The notes under the pieces are model-generated. The model was given only the letters and a program-made list of their open reading frames with translations, was not told the DNA's origin and ran no database searches. Below, one piece after another: positions 1 through 34,543 of a stretch of 35,327 bases of DNA. Within the stretch, counting starts at the first letter, position 1. Each line of letters begins with the position of its first letter. The stretch comes from Blastococcus sp. MG754426 (GTDB lineage: Bacteria; Actinomycetota; Actinomycetes; Mycobacteriales; Geodermatophilaceae), in NCBI RefSeq assembly GCF_021699055.1, contig NZ_SSXC01000042.1:1-35327 (forward strand), written 5' to 3'. Made by a program: the position numbers and the translations under genes.

Positions 1-1578
1 GGGCGGGGCCGCGGCCAGCGCGTCCCGCAGGTCGTCGGACAGGGCCTCGAAGCGCGAGCCGCCCTCACCACCGCCGCGCGTCAGCGACGCCAGCGTGAGC
101 ACGGTACCGTCGCCGTCGCCGGCGGGCTCGGCCCGGGCGAAGACGCGCTCGCGGCGGAGCAGCAGCATGCCGAGCAGCCCGCCCAGGAGGACGATCGAGG
201 CGCCCAGCACCCAGAGCTGCCCGGGGTCGTGCGAGTACTGCAGGGCGGCGAACTCCTTGACCCCGCTGAAGGTGATGCGGGTGCCGTCGGGCAGGTCGAA
301 CGACTCCCCCACCGAGAGGTTCGCCGAGCCGACCTCGGTGAGCCGGCCGCGCTCGATCTGGCTCTGGTCGATGGAGTACACCGACTGCGGCAGCCCCGAG
401 TCCAGGCCGAGGTAGCCGGAGTAGGCGATCAGCGCCACCTGCGGGGCCAGGGGCCGCGGGTCGATCGACGTGAGCACACCGCCCTGCACCAGACCCGTCG
501 GGGCGAGGAAGCCCTCCAGCGCCAGCTGCTCCTCCTGCCCCGGGACGTCGGGCAGCTTGAGCGCGCCCTCGCTGGCCATCGTCCCCTGGTCGGTGGGCAG
601 GAAGGGCACGGTCAGGTCGGTGAAGGTGGTCCCGTCCGGGACGGTGACGGTGAACGACGGGCTGAAGCCGTGGCCGGTGACGTAGACGCGGTCGCCGTCG
701 AGGCGCAGCGGGTCGTTCACGCCGATGGTGCGGGAGCGCTCCTCGCCGGCCGGGGCGCCGTAGCGGATGTCGGCGGTGAACGAGGCCGCCGTGAGGTTCT
801 CCTCGTACTCGGCGGTGAACTGGTCGAGGTCGACGCAGAGGGCGTTGAGGTCGCCGCTGTCCACCAGCGGGCCCGCGGAGTAGGTGTCGTACTGCTGGAA
901 CGAGTTGCAGAAGCCCTGCCCCTCGGTGACCAGGATGCTGCCCTCGTAGCCCCACAGCTTCCCGCCGGCGAGGCCGAGCAGGAGGGCGAGCAGGGAGAGG
1001 TGGAAGACCAGGTTGCCGGTCTCCTTGAGGTAGCCCTTCTCCGCGGAGAGCTCCGGGCCGCGCGCCCCCTCGCGGCGGACGACGCGGAAGCGGCGCACCC
1101 GGAGCTCCTCCTCGACGACGTCGAGCGCGGCGCCGGGGTCGGAGGGGGTGGCGAGGCGGCCGGCGTCGGGGAGCCGGAGCAGGTTGCGCGGGGCCGGCGG
1201 CGGCGGGGTGCGCAGCGCGCGGGCGTGCTCGGCGGCGCGCGGCACGACGCAGCCGATCAGCGAGACGAACAGCAGCAGGTAGACCGCCGCGAACCACGGC
1301 GAGCTGAAGACGTCGAACAGGTACAGCCGGTCGAGCACCGGGGCGAGTTCGGGGTGGTCGGCGAAGTACTGGTTGACGTTGTTCTGCGACAGCGAGCGCT
1401 GCGGCAGCAGCGAGCCCGGCACGGCCGCCAGCGCCAGCAGGAACAGCAGCACGATCGCCGTCCGCATGGCGGTCAGCCGCCGCCACCAGCGCAGCAGCAG
1501 CCCGCCGAACCGCCGGCCCGCGGAGGGCCCCGGCGGCGGGGCGGGCGCGGCCGGGCGCGAGGGTGCCTCGACGCTCAC
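1..1578 (-). CDS. resB: ResB, cytochrome c biogenesis protein (3' end cut by window edge)
   Basis: ResB (Ccs1) is one half of the System II haem-handling complex that carries haem across the membrane and attaches it to apocytochrome c; its partner CcsA would be expected just beyond the left edge. The frame is open from a GTG at 1578 to base 1, at least 526 codons. After a Pro/Ala-rich start there are membrane segments near residues 35-58, 91-113 and 180-205, a long extracytoplasmic domain, and a last membrane segment near 470-495 followed by a charged tail, the usual ResB layout. The GTG overlaps the ccdA stop by four bases (GTGA), so translation is probably coupled. Only a short C-terminal piece should be missing. 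The order tlpA-ccdA-resB supports the call. Confidence 0.93.
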   Translation of the reverse strand, partial: MSVEAPSRPAAPAPPPGPSAGRRFGGLLLRWWRRLTAMRTAIVLLFLLALAAVPGSLLPQRSLSQNNVNQYFADHPELAPVLDRLYLFDVFSSPWFAAVYLLLFVSLIGCVVPRAAEHARALRTPPPPAPRNLLRLPDAGRLATPSDPGAALDVVEEELRVRRFRVVRREGARGPELSAEKGYLKETGNLVFHLSLLALLLGLAGGKLWGYEGSILVTEGQGFCNSFQQYDTYSAGPLVDSGDLNALCVDLDQFTAEYEENLTAASFTADIRYGAPAGEERSRTIGVNDPLRLDGDRVYVTGHGFSPSFTVTVPDGTTFTDLTVPFLPTDQGTMASEGALKLPDVPGQEEQLALEGFLAPTGLVQGGVLTSIDPRPLAPQVALIAYSGYLGLDSGLPQSVYSIDQSQIERGRLTEVGSANLSVGESFDLPDGTRITFSGVKEFAALQYSHDPGQLWVLGASIVLLGGLLGMLLLRRERVFARAEPAGDGDGTVLTLASLTRGGGEGGSRFEALSDDLRDALAAAPP

Positions 1579-18424: not shown

Positions 18425-18523
18425 TCACTTCTTGTTGCGGCGCTGGACGCGCGTCTTCTTCAGCAGCTTGCGGTGCTTCTTCTTCGCCATCCGCTTGCGC
18501 CGCTTCTTGATGACCGAACCCAC
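18425..18523 (-). CDS. bS22-type small ribosomal protein (AURKAIP1/COX24 family)
   Basis: A 32-residue, extremely basic peptide, starting [19 protein letters not shown] and ending in RVQRRNKK. This is the AURKAIP1/COX24 signature; the mycobacterial homologue (Rv0500B type) was found on the 30S subunit as bS22, related to mitochondrial mS38. Nearly half the residues are Lys or Arg. The GTG at 18523 is supported by GGGAG six bases upstream and by exact family length. Its stop lies ten bases before the epimerase start, so the genes are probably cotranscribed, which matches the mycobacterial order. Confidence 0.9.
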
Positions 18524-18624
18524 GTGTGTCTCCCGACTTCGAAATGATCAGCTCGAACGCGGCCGCAGAGCCTGCCCTGCCGTCGCCCGGCGACCGAGCG
18601 TACCCGAGCCGCAGCGCGGCGATG

Positions 18625-18657
18625 ACACTGTCGCCCTCCGGGCGACACCGCGGCCGG
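18625..18657 (+). repeat. Hairpin repeat family, copy A
   Basis: The hairpin TGTCGCCC-TCC-GGGCGACA (18629-18647) is preceded by ACAC and followed by CCGCGGCCGG. Two further copies with the same frame occur at 28125-28157 and 33433-33464. Stem changes between copies are compensated on the other arm. The shared tail CCGCGGCC(A/G)G is outside the stem. Confidence 0.8.
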
Positions 18658-18744
18658 CTGGCGCACCCCGTGTCGCACCGAGCCGTTTCGTCACGCCTCC
18701 GCGCACCCCGCAGGGCGCGCTCGACGCGATCATGCGGCGAGCCA

Positions 18745-18856: not shown

Positions 18857-19201
18857 TCAGGCGATGTCGGTGTAGGCGTCGCGCAGGTAGTCCTGGACGG
18901 CGCGCTCCGGCACGCGGAACGAGCGACCGACGCGGACGGCGGAGAGCTCGCCCGCGTGGACCAGGCGGTACACGGTCATCTTGGAGACGCGCATCATGGC
19001 GGCGACCTCGGCCACGGTCAGGAAGGTGACGGCGGCGCGGGGGGCCGGGACCGCGGGGCGGCCGATCGGCATGGCGGCGGGGTGCTGGGCCGGCACGGGG
19101 CGGGCGACGGCCGCGGCGGTCATCGGGCGACCCATCTGGCGGGGGACGGGCATCCCCGGGCGGACGACGGTGGCGGCAGCGTGGCGCTGGGGCATGGTCA
19201 T
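18857..19201 (-). CDS. Excisionase/MerR-type winged-helix DNA-binding protein
   Basis: A 114-residue protein: a Pro/Ala/Arg-rich N-terminal region of about 57 residues, then a compact winged helix (about 60-108) reading FLTVAEVAAMMRVSKMTVYRLVHAGELSAVRVGRSFRVPERAV. This core is nearly that of Rv0500A of M. tuberculosis, which lies in the same place between proC and the bS22 gene. Such domains resemble phage excisionases and BldC, which bind DNA repeats, but no integrase is present, so this is a chromosomal regulator rather than a mobile-element gene. The ATG at 19201 has GGAG eight bases upstream; a second ATG two codons later is less well placed. The long N-terminal extension is not in the mycobacterial protein. 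Confidence 0.88.
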   Translation of the reverse strand: MTMPQRHAAATVVRPGMPVPRQMGRPMTAAAVARPVPAQHPAAMPIGRPAVPAPRAAVTFLTVAEVAAMMRVSKMTVYRLVHAGELSAVRVGRSFRVPERAVQDYLRDAYTDIA

Positions 19202-27442: not shown

Positions 27443-28111
27443 GTGCGGGACAGCTACCACGAGGAACTCGACGACATCAACACCTGCCTGGTGGAGATGG
27501 CCAACTCCGTGGGCTCGCAGATGAGCACGGCCACCACGGCGCTCCTGGACGCCGATGTCGCCCTGGCCGACCTGGTGATCGCCGGCGACGACCAGATCGA
27601 CGCGACCCGCGAGAGCATCGAGCAGCGCACCTTCACGCTGCTCGCCCGCCAGCAGCCGGTGGCCGGCGACCTGCGGACCATCACGACCGCCATGCGCATC
27701 GTCGCCGACCTCGAGCGGATGGGCGACCTCGCCGCCCACATCGCCAAGGTGGCGCGCATGCGCTTCCCCGACCACGCGGTGCCGCAGGAGGTCCGGCCGG
27801 CCTTCCTCGAGGCGGGCAACGTGGCGGAGCTGCTCATCACCAAGACCGCGACCGTCATCGCCAAGCGCGACGTCGAGGCCGCCCAGGAGCTGGAGACGGA
27901 CGACGACGCGATGGATCAGATCCACCGCGGGCTGTTCCGCCAGCTGCTGAGCGAGGACTGGCCGCACGGCATCGAGTCGGCCATCGACATCACGCTGCTC
28001 GGCCGCTACTACGAGCGCTTCGCCGACCACGCGGTCAGCGTCGCCCGCCGGGTCTGCTACCTGGTCACCGGCGAGCGCTACGACTCCGCGGTCTCGTCAG
28101 CCTCCGGCTGA
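27443..28111 (+). CDS. phoU: Phosphate signalling protein PhoU
   Basis: A 222-residue all-helical protein made of two PhoU repeats. It starts RDSYHEELDDINTCLVEMANSVGSQM and contains the metal-binding-type motifs ERMGDLAAHIAKVA in the first repeat and RYYERFADHAVSVARRV in the second, both classic PhoU signatures. PhoU links phosphate uptake to the two-component kinase and keeps it off when phosphate is plentiful. The GTG at 27443 has AGAGGA a few bases upstream. It diverges from senX3-regX3 across the GTTCACC repeats, so all three genes may answer to the same signal. Confidence 0.95.
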   Translation: MRDSYHEELDDINTCLVEMANSVGSQMSTATTALLDADVALADLVIAGDDQIDATRESIEQRTFTLLARQQPVAGDLRTITTAMRIVADLERMGDLAAHIAKVARMRFPDHAVPQEVRPAFLEAGNVAELLITKTATVIAKRDVEAAQELETDDDAMDQIHRGLFRQLLSEDWPHGIESAIDITLLGRYYERFADHAVSVARRVCYLVTGERYDSAVSSASG

Positions 28112-28124
28112 CACCGCTGCCATC

Positions 28125-28157
28125 ACACTGCCGTCCTCCGGGCGGCACCGCGGCCAG
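28125..28157 (+). repeat. Hairpin repeat family, copy B
   Basis: TGCCGTCC-TCC-GGGCGGCA (28129-28147) preceded by ACAC and followed by CCGCGGCCAGG, 14 bases after the phoU stop. One stem pair is a G-U type; others are fully paired. Two more hairpins follow in the same gap: TGCCGA-CTCC-TCGGCA (28188-28203) and CCCTGCG/CGCAGGG (28205-28211 with 28234-28240). Confidence 0.75.
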
Positions 28158-28247
28158 GAGCCGCGCCCGTTGCGCTGAACCCTGCCCTGCCGACTCCTCG
28201 GCAACCCTGCGGGCCCCGCTCGCCGCGGCGCCTCGCAGGGCGGCTCC

Positions 28248-32659: not shown

Positions 32660-33433
32660 ATGTCAGGTAGCTCACCCCCCGCCCCCGGCTCCCTCCCCGG
32701 CACCGGTCGCACCGCCGTCGTCACGGGCGCCTCGAGCGGGATCGGGGCGGCGACGGCCCGGCGGCTCGCGGCCGAGGGTTTCGACGTCGTCGTCGGTGCC
32801 CGCCGGCTGGACCGCCTGGAGGAGCTCGCCGCCGCGATCGGCGGCCGGGCCCTGCCCCTGGACCTCACCGATCCCGAGTCCGTGGCCGCGTTCACCGCCG
32901 CGCTCGATCGGGTGGACGTGCTGGTCAACAACGCCGGCGGGGCGTTCGACACCAACCCCGTCGCCGAGGCCGACCTCGACTCCTGGGCCCGCACCTACGA
33001 GGTGAACGTGCTCGGCACCGTGCGGCTGACCAAGGCCCTGCTGCCGAAGCTGCGTGACTCCGGCGCGGGTGACGTGCTGTTCGTGGGCTCCACCGCCGGG
33101 CTGATCTCCTACGAGGGGGGCGCCTCGTACACCGCTGCCAAGCACGGGGTGCACACGCTGGCCGAGACGCTGCGGCTCGAGCTGTGCGGGGACCCGGTCC
33201 GGGTGATCGAGATCGCCCCCGGGATGGTGAGGACCGAGGAGTTCTCGCTCAACCGCACCGGCTCGCAGGAGCGGGCCGACGCCGTCTACCGCGGGGTGCG
33301 CGAGCCGCTGGTCGCCCAGGACGTCGCCGACTGCATCGCGTGGGCGCTCACCCGCCCGCACCACGTCAACGTCGACCTGCTGGTGGTCCGCCCGCGCGCC
33401 CAGGCCGCCCAGCACAAGGTCGCGCGCGAATGA
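32660..33433 (+). CDS. Short-chain dehydrogenase/reductase
   Basis: A 257-residue classical SDR. The cofactor motif TGASSGIG is at 22-29, an acidic-then-basic pattern GARRLDRL near 47-53 suggests NADP(H), NNAG is at 90-93, and the catalytic Ser144, Tyr157 and Lys161 are in [22 protein letters not shown]. The substrate is unknown. The homologue Rv0484c lies in the same place between murB and mshA. The ATG at 32660 is preceded by CCAGGATGGGGG; the upstream in-frame TTG (32636) is unlikely. Its TGA stop is the first part of hairpin repeat copy C. Confidence 0.9.
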
Positions 33434-33464
33434 CACCGTCGTCCTCCGGACGACACCGCGGCCA
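33431..33464 (+). repeat. Hairpin repeat family, copy C
   Basis: GTCGTCC-TCC-GGACGAC (33438-33454), preceded by TGACACC and followed by ACCGCGGCCAGG. The TGA at its left end is the stop codon of the SDR gene. Relative to copy A, a C:G pair has become T:A, conserving the stem. Confidence 0.8.
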
Positions 33465-33468
33465 GGTA

Positions 33469-33491
33469 GCGCCCTCCGTCGGGTGGAGCGC
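33469..33491 (+). repeat. Hairpin with GTCGGGT loop, copy C
   Basis: CTCC (33474-33477) pairs with GGAG (33485-33488) around the loop GTCGGGT, extended by GCG/CGC after a two-base bulge. The inner arm and loop are those of the hairpin at 18745-18768. It ends five bases before the murB stop. Confidence 0.5.
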
Positions 33492-33496
33492 GTCCG

Positions 33497-34543
33497 TCAC
33501 GCCTGCGCGGACCCCTCCGGGGCCCACCCGGCGCGACCGAGCTCCACGGCGGTCGGTTCGCGCTCCAGGGTGACGCCGAACCGCTCCTCGACCGCGGCCA
33601 CGACCTTCCCGGCGAAGGCGAGGAGCTCGGCCGCCGTCGCGCCGTCCTCGGTGGTGAGCGCGAGGCTGTGCCGCGACGAGGTGCCCACCCGCCCGTCGCG
33701 GGTGCCCCGCCCGAAGCCGGCGTGCTGCACCAGCCAGGCGGCGCTGAGCTTGAGCTGCCCGTCCCCGGCCGGCCAGCTCGGGCAGCCCTCGACCGCCCGG
33801 TCGGCGGCCACGATCGGGTTGGTGAAGAACGAGCCGGCGCTGCGCGAGTCGGGGTCGGCGGCGTCCCAGACCATGCCCTTGCCGCGGCGCAGCGCCAGGA
33901 CGGCGTCGCGGACGGCGGCCAGCGGCGCCCGCTCGCCGACCGCCACGCCCAGGGAGCGGGCCAGCTCCGCGTAGCCGACCGGGCGCGACAGCTCGCCGGC
34001 CTCCAGCGCGAACGTCACCTCGAGGACGACGAACCGGCCCGGCTCGCGCTTGAGCCGGCTGTCGCGGTAGGCGAAGCCGCACTCGGCCGGGCTCAGCGTC
34101 CGCTCGGCCTTCTCGGCGCGGTCGTACACGCGGACGGCGGTGATCGTCTGCGCGACCTCCTGGCCGTACGCGCCGACGTTCTGCACCGGTGTCGCCCCCG
34201 TGGAGCCGGGGATGCCCGAGAGCGCCTCCACGCCCGCCAGCCGCTGCTCGACGGTGTGCGCCACCAGCGCGTCCCAGTCCTCCCCCGCCTGGACCACGAG
34301 GGTCCCGCCGGTGCGCTCGATCCCCCGCGACCGGACGGCGACGACGTCGCCCGGCCACCCCTCGTCGGGGGCGATGAGGTTGGAGCCGCCGCCCAGGAGC
34401 AGCAGGGGCCGGCCGGACTCGTCGGCGTCGCGGACGGCGGCGACCAGCTCGGCGGCCGTCTCGACCTCCACCAGCCGCTCGGCGGGGCCGCCCACGGCCA
34501 GGGTGGTCAGCCCCGCGAGGGGGACGTCGGATCGCACCTGCAC
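33497..34543 (-). CDS. murB: UDP-N-acetylenolpyruvoylglucosamine reductase
   Basis: MurB is the FAD enzyme that reduces UDP-GlcNAc-enolpyruvate to UDP-MurNAc in peptidoglycan synthesis. The 348-residue product has the start DVPLAGLTTLAVGGPAERLVEV, the FAD-binding LLLLGGGSNLIAPDEGW, GIPGSTGATPVQNVGAYGQEV, YRDSRLK and SAGSFFTNPIV, the last with the catalytic serine. The GTG at 34543 has no ribosome site; TACCGT lies six bases upstream, so leaderless expression is likely. An in-frame GTG two codons later is an alternative. In M. tuberculosis murB (Rv0482) also ends this neighbourhood. Confidence 0.96.
   Translation of the reverse strand: MQVRSDVPLAGLTTLAVGGPAERLVEVETAAELVAAVRDADESGRPLLLLGGGSNLIAPDEGWPGDVVAVRSRGIERTGGTLVVQAGEDWDALVAHTVEQRLAGVEALSGIPGSTGATPVQNVGAYGQEVAQTITAVRVYDRAEKAERTLSPAECGFAYRDSRLKREPGRFVVLEVTFALEAGELSRPVGYAELARSLGVAVGERAPLAAVRDAVLALRRGKGMVWDAADPDSRSAGSFFTNPIVAADRAVEGCPSWPAGDGQLKLSAAWLVQHAGFGRGTRDGRVGTSSRHSLALTTEDGATAAELLAFAGKVVAAVEERFGVTLEREPTAVELGRAGWAPEGSAQA

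Follow-up and report, generated by a model that had tools for sequence, protein, structure and literature searches.

A dispersed, REP-like repeat of two covarying hairpins at gene ends in the Geodermatophilaceae, with a possible role at RNA 3' ends

Short palindromes that recur between genes may be RNA structures, protein-binding dyads or dispersed repeats, and a 35,327-nucleotide stretch of the genome of Blastococcus sp. MG754426 (hereafter the window) raises the question of which of these a recurrent hairpin represents. The genus belongs to the Geodermatophilaceae, a family of soil and desert bacteria. The initial annotation of the window described three intergenic hairpins built on the frame ACAC, arm, TCC, arm and CCGCGGCC(A/G)G, with compensatory changes in the arms, and proposed either a selected structure or a REP-like element. 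All three copies are present at the places it gave (starts at 18624, 28124 and 33432, against 18625, 28125 and 33433 in the annotation). A degenerate pattern of 34 positions, allowing up to three mismatches, matches the window at exactly these three sites and gives no match in 100 dinucleotide shuffles.

Features of the three copies and of nearby hairpins in the window (bit scores and E values refer to model R1, defined in the text)
Feature	Position	Strand	Basis or details
Copy A, hairpin 1 and linker	18622..18691	+	R1 match, 70.6 bits, E 1.2e-11
Copy A, hairpin 1	arms 18629-18636 and 18640-18647		loop TCC at 18637-18639
Copy A, hairpin 2 (weak or degraded remnant)	18690..18730	+	by eye against family consensus
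Extra hairpin 1 ahead of copy B	28096..28112	+	GTCAGCC-TCC-GGCTGAC
Copy B, hairpin 1 (28129-28147) and linker	28122..28188	+	R1 match, 70.0 bits, E 1.7e-11
Perfect hairpin on the phosphoglyceromutase stop codon	28248..28288	.	tip CCCTCCGGG
Copy C, hairpin 1 (33438-33454) and linker	33430..33497	+	R1 match, 73.0 bits, E 3.7e-12
Copy C, hairpin 2	33496..33537	+	sequence, GTCACGCC ... CCCCTCCGGGG ... GGCGCGAC; family arms covary across 97 copies

Parts of the original description need adjustment. The arms had been given as eight bases long, but in copy C the outermost base is unpaired, according to the letters that the annotation itself listed, and the stem is therefore of 7 bp. The hairpin is real but is not the whole repeat, since a linker and a second hairpin follow it. 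The statement that all copies lie between genes is roughly correct: copy A lies between the genes for bS22 (18425-18523, minus strand) and an HTH protein (18857-19201, minus strand), antisense to both and upstream of bS22, and copy B lies 3' of phoU, convergent with the phosphoglyceromutase gene (gpm). However, the extra hairpin that precedes copy B carries the phoU stop codon (28109-28111) in its 3' arm, and copy C contacts genes on both sides, beginning on the TGA (33431-33433) that ends the upstream SDR gene and overlapping with its hairpin 2 the called 3' end (33497) of the convergent murB gene on the minus strand. The extra hairpin is identical in the related genome G015, and G005 has GTCATCC-GTC-GGATGAC at the same codons.

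Two side observations concern the surroundings of these copies. The called murB frame extends into the element (window 33497-33543, minus strand), and its NCBIfam match stops at residue 334 of 348, so that about 14 residues may derive from the other strand of the element. In addition, a motif CCTCGC(A/G)GGGCGGCTC recurs, as judged by eye, after several elements (window about 28226-28245, L009, L075 and L089, with a similar one in L071), which hints at further modules of this kind.

The complete unit is about 110 nt long and comprises hairpin 1, a conserved linker of about 40 nt and hairpin 2; aligned copies read (A/G)TGACAC, hairpin 1, CACCGCGGCCAGGWGCCGTSCCC...GCTGAGCC, hairpin 2. The stem of hairpin 1 is 7 bp long and its loop is mostly TCC; the hairpin starts near a stop codon and is flanked by TGACAC and CACCGCGG. 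In hairpin 2 the tip resembles CCCTCCGGG, the inner part contains a mismatch and the outer arms are of the type GTCGCGCC/GGCGCGAC. Of 119 full-length rows, 92 have this tip at 83-88 nt from the start, and in 15 the pattern used found none. The spacing of the two hairpins differs by single bases between copies, so that no reading frame is held across them. RNAalifold, applied to 18 long copies, recovered hairpin 1, but of hairpin 2 no more than a tip of 3 bp, because the outer arms differ in length. Single copies fold modestly (z -0.8 to -2.3). A third helix within the linker, GGCCAG/CTGAGCC, was considered and rejected, its own arms scoring 13.0 and swapped arms 12.8 (percentile 0.51). In the copies inspected by eye neither hairpin is followed by a U-run, and the ends of the unit are not inverted repeats of each other, again by eye.

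Units also occur in tandem. Among the named loci, as we call those recovered by the exact-pattern search described below (100 of 103 loci were scanned), neighbouring copies less than 250 nt apart have the same orientation in 32 of 33 cases and are head-to-head in one; one further pair resembling the head-to-head arrangement was seen in G015 (C230). The head-to-tail arrays have periods of 81-97 nt, and where hairpin 1 alone is repeated the period is about 29-34 nt. G012 and G002, for instance, each have an array of three units with a spacing of 85 nt, G008 has four partial units spaced by 84 nt, and G016 has four hairpin-1 units in tandem. Separately, a 90-nt tandem array of eight partial units was observed in Geodermatophilus sp. 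LHW52908 (L165 724-1409), a possible variable-number marker.

The repeat is dispersed through the genome and occurs in many genomes of the family. A covariance model of hairpin 1 and linker (R1), built from 23 copies, gave 38 matches at E <= 0.01 and 47 at E <= 1 in the genome of the window (G000; 4.71 Mb in 224 contigs). With up to three mismatches, the core pattern matched this genome 45 times, compared with 15 for the reversed pattern. A search for the exact pattern across 84,980 species returned 103 stretches, all from Geodermatophilaceae, with titles naming Blastococcus, Geodermatophilus, Modestobacter, Trujillonella and Geodermatophilaceae bacterium. In the window's genus, R1 found the repeat in 22 of 23 genomes (0 to 118 matches per genome), and it gave 16 matches in the sole other genome of the family in the sample. 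The one genus genome that lacks a match at E <= 0.01, G003, offers a natural control for loss. Beyond the family, two of 16 other genomes of the order gave one weak match each (E 0.003 and 0.0099). Among 197 genomes of the class, searched with stricter filters that may lose weak matches, only the window's own genome and three others were positive; these three had one match each, which by eye comprise one likely real copy (G060, L346) and two coding lookalikes. With one copy as query, blastn gave no match in plasmid and phage records.

The impression that the hairpin belongs to no described family stands as far as the sources covered extend. No family of Rfam 15 reached its gathering score over the element (in the window, in five loci at E up to 5 and in ten loci), and only the adjoining tRNA and SRP RNA genes did so. 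A literature search, with most subscription journals outside its scope, retrieved no report, and the available text of PMC2267715 and PMC3848588 contains nothing on this repeat. The suggestion of a REP-like element spread through the genome is likewise borne out by the many dispersed copies, mostly at gene ends. The REP-associated tyrosine transposase (RAYT) that the annotation suggested looking for elsewhere in the genome is not: the Y1_Tnp profile (PF01797) matched neither the window's own genome nor any of the 23 genus genomes at E <= 0.001, compared with 5 of 14 control genomes, and a RAYT-driven REP was accordingly rejected.

The stems of both hairpins vary with compensation. Neither outcome that the initial annotation had named as refuting its proposal, a lack of further copies or uncompensated stem variation, was observed. 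Among 23 copies from the window's own genome, 98.1% of the hairpin 1 cells pair and 23 cells carry double changes (0 of 500 shuffles as high). Two of the five measures are less striking in this set: 37 of 500 shuffles reach the observed number of pairs with a double change, and 93 of 500 the number of pair types. Circularity was checked with a sequence-only model, R2, in the complete genome G008 (75 matches), which lies outside the model set; the resulting alignment holds 77 matches, a few of them in two overlapping loci, and 69 distinct rows. Here 97.0% of hairpin 1 cells are paired, with 84 double-change cells against 25.9 in shuffles and a covariation of 0.424 against 0.152; none of 500 shuffles was as high and no slid version came near. 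Pair types, one of the five measures, do not exceed the shuffles (389 of 500 as high). Because the exact pattern used to choose the named loci fixes one arm, their stem variety is narrowed; the G008 set is free of this effect. For hairpin 2, the left arms fit their own right arm better than swapped ones (20.0 versus 17.5; sd of means 0.39; n=97, the rows with the tip at the expected place among 119 full-length rows from 140 matches). The same test gives 18.7 versus 14.3 for hairpin 1, and 18.3 versus 18.4 and 17.8 versus 17.8 for control segment pairs.

The position of the element relative to genes, called with a home-made gene caller, is far from uniform. In the window's own genome, 37 of the 38 copies were placed: 19 lie between convergent genes, 10 between co-directional genes in the sense direction, 7 likewise but antisense, one lacks an upstream gene and none lies between divergent genes. 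In G008, 68 matches form 53 clusters, of which 25 are convergent, 14 sense, 9 antisense and 3 divergent, with 2 inside ORFs. The background there, from gaps of at least 60 bp in fifteen 20-kb stretches, comprises 86 co-directional, 31 divergent and 19 convergent gaps; convergent gaps are thus enriched (25 of 51 clusters with two neighbours versus 19 of 136 gaps, p 1.7e-6) and divergent ones avoided (3 of 51 versus 31 of 136, p 0.006). The 108 clusters of the named loci behave alike, with 47 convergent, 34 sense, 10 antisense and 3 divergent, the remainder having a sense upstream gene and no called downstream gene (6), no upstream gene (2) or a position inside an ORF (6). Their gaps number 215 co-directional, 89 divergent and 71 convergent, so that 47/94 clusters are convergent and 3/94 divergent, compared with 71/375 and 89/375 gaps. 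When co-directional gaps are pooled, sense copies outnumber antisense ones (58 versus 26, p 0.0006); the bias is significant in the named loci (34:10) but not in G008 (14:9) or G000 (10:7) alone.

The start of the element keeps a register with the stop codon of the preceding gene. Where the upstream gene is in the sense direction, its stop codon ends between -5 and +7 of the model start in 61 of 87 copies in the named loci and in 26 of 39 in G008. In the named loci the offsets peak at +4, +1, -3 and -4, in G008 at +4; at the commonest offset (20 of 87 and 11 of 39) the element's own TGA serves as the stop. One copy in G007 directly follows the SRP RNA gene.

Individual sites show how readily the element comes and goes. 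The gap between phoU and gpm contains it in 16 of 23 genomes, as found with a short core pattern and counting degraded elements in G006, G020 and G011. Among the other seven genomes, two have the stop codons 0 and 1 nt apart with no hairpin between them, and the element is thus not required at this place. The remaining five have gaps of 63-186 nt that carry other inverted repeats, with long unrelated stems in G017, G003 and G007; folding is strong by shuffle score in G017 (z -3.6) and G003 (z -3.3), z is -1.8 in G007, and values for G001 and G013 are not significant. Gaps with the element have z below -2 in only 9 of 16 cases, the rest lying between -1.9 and +0.7, within an overall range of -4.3 to +0.7. 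Comparison of empty and filled sites at this locus by eye reveals no clear target duplication of the kind that accompanies a transposon-derived MITE. Following the SDR gene, the element was seen by eye only in G000, G005, G001 and G022 among 22 genomes; G015 lacks it there, with an SDR protein 98% identical, and in G005 and G001 the SDR frame continues into the element.

A comparison of 30 of the 39 matches in the closely related species G015 with the 37 copies of G000 gives the same picture. Sixteen G015 copies, on 14 G000 loci, share a site with a G000 copy, with flanks 92-96% alike, and the other 14 have no counterpart among the 37. The element lies the same way round at 12 of these 14 sites; at two (L319/L044 and L336/L034) it is reversed between colinear flanks, about 120 nt of L336 (1505-1623) and L034 (1499-1618) matching only in the opposite sense, at 81%. 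Either a flip in place or independent re-insertion would produce this arrangement. In a separate observation, about 95 bases 3' of the element (L054 about 1400-1500, minus strand, and L337) are nearly identical in two species, next to elements that differ strongly; this stretch has no Rfam match and is possibly an undescribed conserved site.

The shared sites also bear on the origin of the compensatory changes. Paired changes were counted at 11 sites with the same orientation (L325/L057, a tandem near a contig end, was omitted), where median identity is 0.77 in hairpin 1 and 0.94 in the upstream gene. As scripted, the 77 pairs comprise 52 unchanged, 15 with double, 7 with one-sided and 3 with broken changes; after correction of the L334/L055 registration by eye, these become 58, 13, 5 and 1. 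With a divergence of about 6%, point changes arising independently would not yield as many as thirteen double changes among 77 pairs; either arms have been brought in from other copies, or the sequence of one arm has been copied to its partner. The perfect hairpin on the gpm stop codon, possibly the terminator of that gene, provides a likely example of the latter. In the nine other genomes that keep the hairpin its left arm has TCCTC (TTCCTC, once CTCCTC), and only in the window's genome does it have GACGA, the exact complement of the right arm; this is a likely case of quasipalindrome correction. That template switching can give rise to compensatory changes has been described (PMC8794818), and it may explain part of the pairing here. 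Gene conversion as the sole source of new arms is doubtful, as no donor for two rare arm variants of G000 turned up in the G000 loci fetched, the set to which the search was confined. The selected structure of the initial annotation is therefore upheld in part: the stem is maintained, but its paired changes may arise by template switching at palindromes and do not speak for selection alone.

What, then, could the element do? The stop-codon register, the preference for convergent genes, the two covarying GC-rich hairpins and the fact that some relatives have different hairpins in this position suggest a dispersed, untagged REP-like element acting as an RNA 3'-end module, a reading to which we give a probability of about 0.5. 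The element would be transcribed together with the upstream gene, and its two hairpins would fold as RNA directly behind the terminating ribosome. The folded module could then stop or pause RNA polymerase without a U-run, or shield the 3' end of the mRNA, in both directions where it lies between convergent genes; U-less termination or 3'-end protection is the most likely action. Its spread would rely on recombination or on an enzyme other than a RAYT. A bolder and rather unlikely version of this proposal would make the element a portable terminator used across the family: a two-hairpin RNA module, mobile or recombinogenic, that settles on stop codons and supplies stop and 3' end together, swaps with other terminator hairpins between convergent genes, flips in place and, without any known transposase, has its stems kept perfect by template switching while their letters change fast.

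It is less likely that the element is instead selfish or neutral REP-like DNA that has no function, survives at 3' ends where it does least harm and has its stems repaired by template switching during replication. The high turnover between G015 and G000, the reversals at shared sites, the range of copy number within a single genus, the gpm-end hairpin and the donorless arm variants would all suit such DNA. It would not by itself lead one to expect that the TCC loop and the unpaired linker are conserved too, that the start is kept near the stop codon or that pooled co-directional copies favour the sense direction. Convergent enrichment, for its part, could be mere promoter avoidance. The reversed sites show that orientation is not a fixed property of a site, and they are compatible both with a module that works in two directions between convergent genes and with a selfish repeat.

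The stop-codon offsets, with their peaks, would also suit an action of hairpin 1 on the terminating ribosome, either insulating against re-initiation or stalling, as in a ribosome termination structure or a REP-like translation brake. Such structures have been described (PMC7518266), and REPs of E. coli within 15 nt of stop codons are said to stall ribosomes (PMC12306157). This role is improbable for the present element, about half of whose copies lie between convergent genes with no downstream start to insulate, and neither the linker nor hairpin 2 would be needed for it. Less probable still is a DNA-level binding site for a nucleoid protein or gyrase, or a BIME-like dyad. The perfect dyad with its conserved CACCGCGG core and the occurrence of both orientations at two shared sites would agree with one, but a dimer that reads sequence would hardly allow arm letters to change freely as long as they pair, and the register is set by genes. 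The stop-codon register and the placement tend to favour an RNA element over a dyad protein site.

The element can be set beside several known systems. Hairpin clusters acting as terminators lie close to the stop codon, need no poly-U and are favoured in GC-rich genomes (PMC8355165). The hairpins described here are likewise near the stop codon and, by eye, without the U-run of a canonical intrinsic terminator; in contrast, hairpin clusters form no sequence family and follow a rule of less than 15 nt between hairpins, whereas the linker here measures about 40 nt. Ribosome termination structures, stable structures right after the stop codon (PMC7518266), represent a general structural tendency, whereas the element is a dispersed repeat.

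Among actinobacteria, two repeats of mycobacteria offer parallels. MIRU units contact TGA. TRIT are lineage-specific repeated hairpin terminators at gene ends in M. tuberculosis. MIRU are interspersed units of 40-100 nt (PMC12548453, PMC2734929), and the element resembles them in its head-to-tail tandem growth in an actinobacterium, with periods of 81-97 nt. However, MIRU insert at start codons and carry a coupled ORF, whereas the element follows stop codons and is convergent in about half of its copies; a MIRU-like in-frame ORF was rejected on this ground and because hairpin spacing keeps no frame. The TRIT model is mentioned in PMC3526491. The element shares with TRIT, compared by description only, the character of a repeated, lineage-specific gene-end hairpin in an actinobacterium, its terminator role being putative.

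A tagless, RAYT-free family in stop-codon register in high-GC actinobacteria would allow tests of how repeats spread without a dedicated enzyme and of how these bacteria end transcripts without U-runs. At sites common to two close species, moreover, paired stem changes can be watched in place, so that selection becomes separable from template switching.

The nearest relatives in kind are the REP repeats. The REP/BIME, GTAG and CGTC super-families consist of multicopy short palindromes that are mostly found downstream of genes (Di Nocera 2013, PMC3733652). They sit between convergent or unidirectional genes, near the 3' ends of both ORFs where these converge, and sometimes provide the stop codon; their dimers are mostly head-to-head or tail-to-tail, and the repeats vary between species (PMC3733652). 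Tagged families have been surveyed mainly from Proteobacteria, and the spread of GTAG repeats is tied to RAYT enzymes (PMC3733652). The phyla given in the same paper do not include Actinobacteria, although REP-like families without a tag are mentioned for M. tuberculosis in its discussion; a newer tool paper predicts REPs in some Actinomycetota too (PMC12306157). Like REPs, the element is extragenic, located at 3' ends with a preference for convergent gaps, and may supply a stop codon. It differs in having two different hairpins joined by a linker in a unit of about 110 nt, in having no RAYT, in neighbours that lie the same way round (32/33) and do not form inverted dimers, and in lacking an unpaired GTAG or CGTC tag. 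CGTC occurs, as judged by eye, only paired, inside some arm variants, and membership of the CGTC-REPs was rejected for this reason. The element is regarded as representing a family of REP-like repeats that lacks a tag and is new, though similar in kind to the REPs already described.
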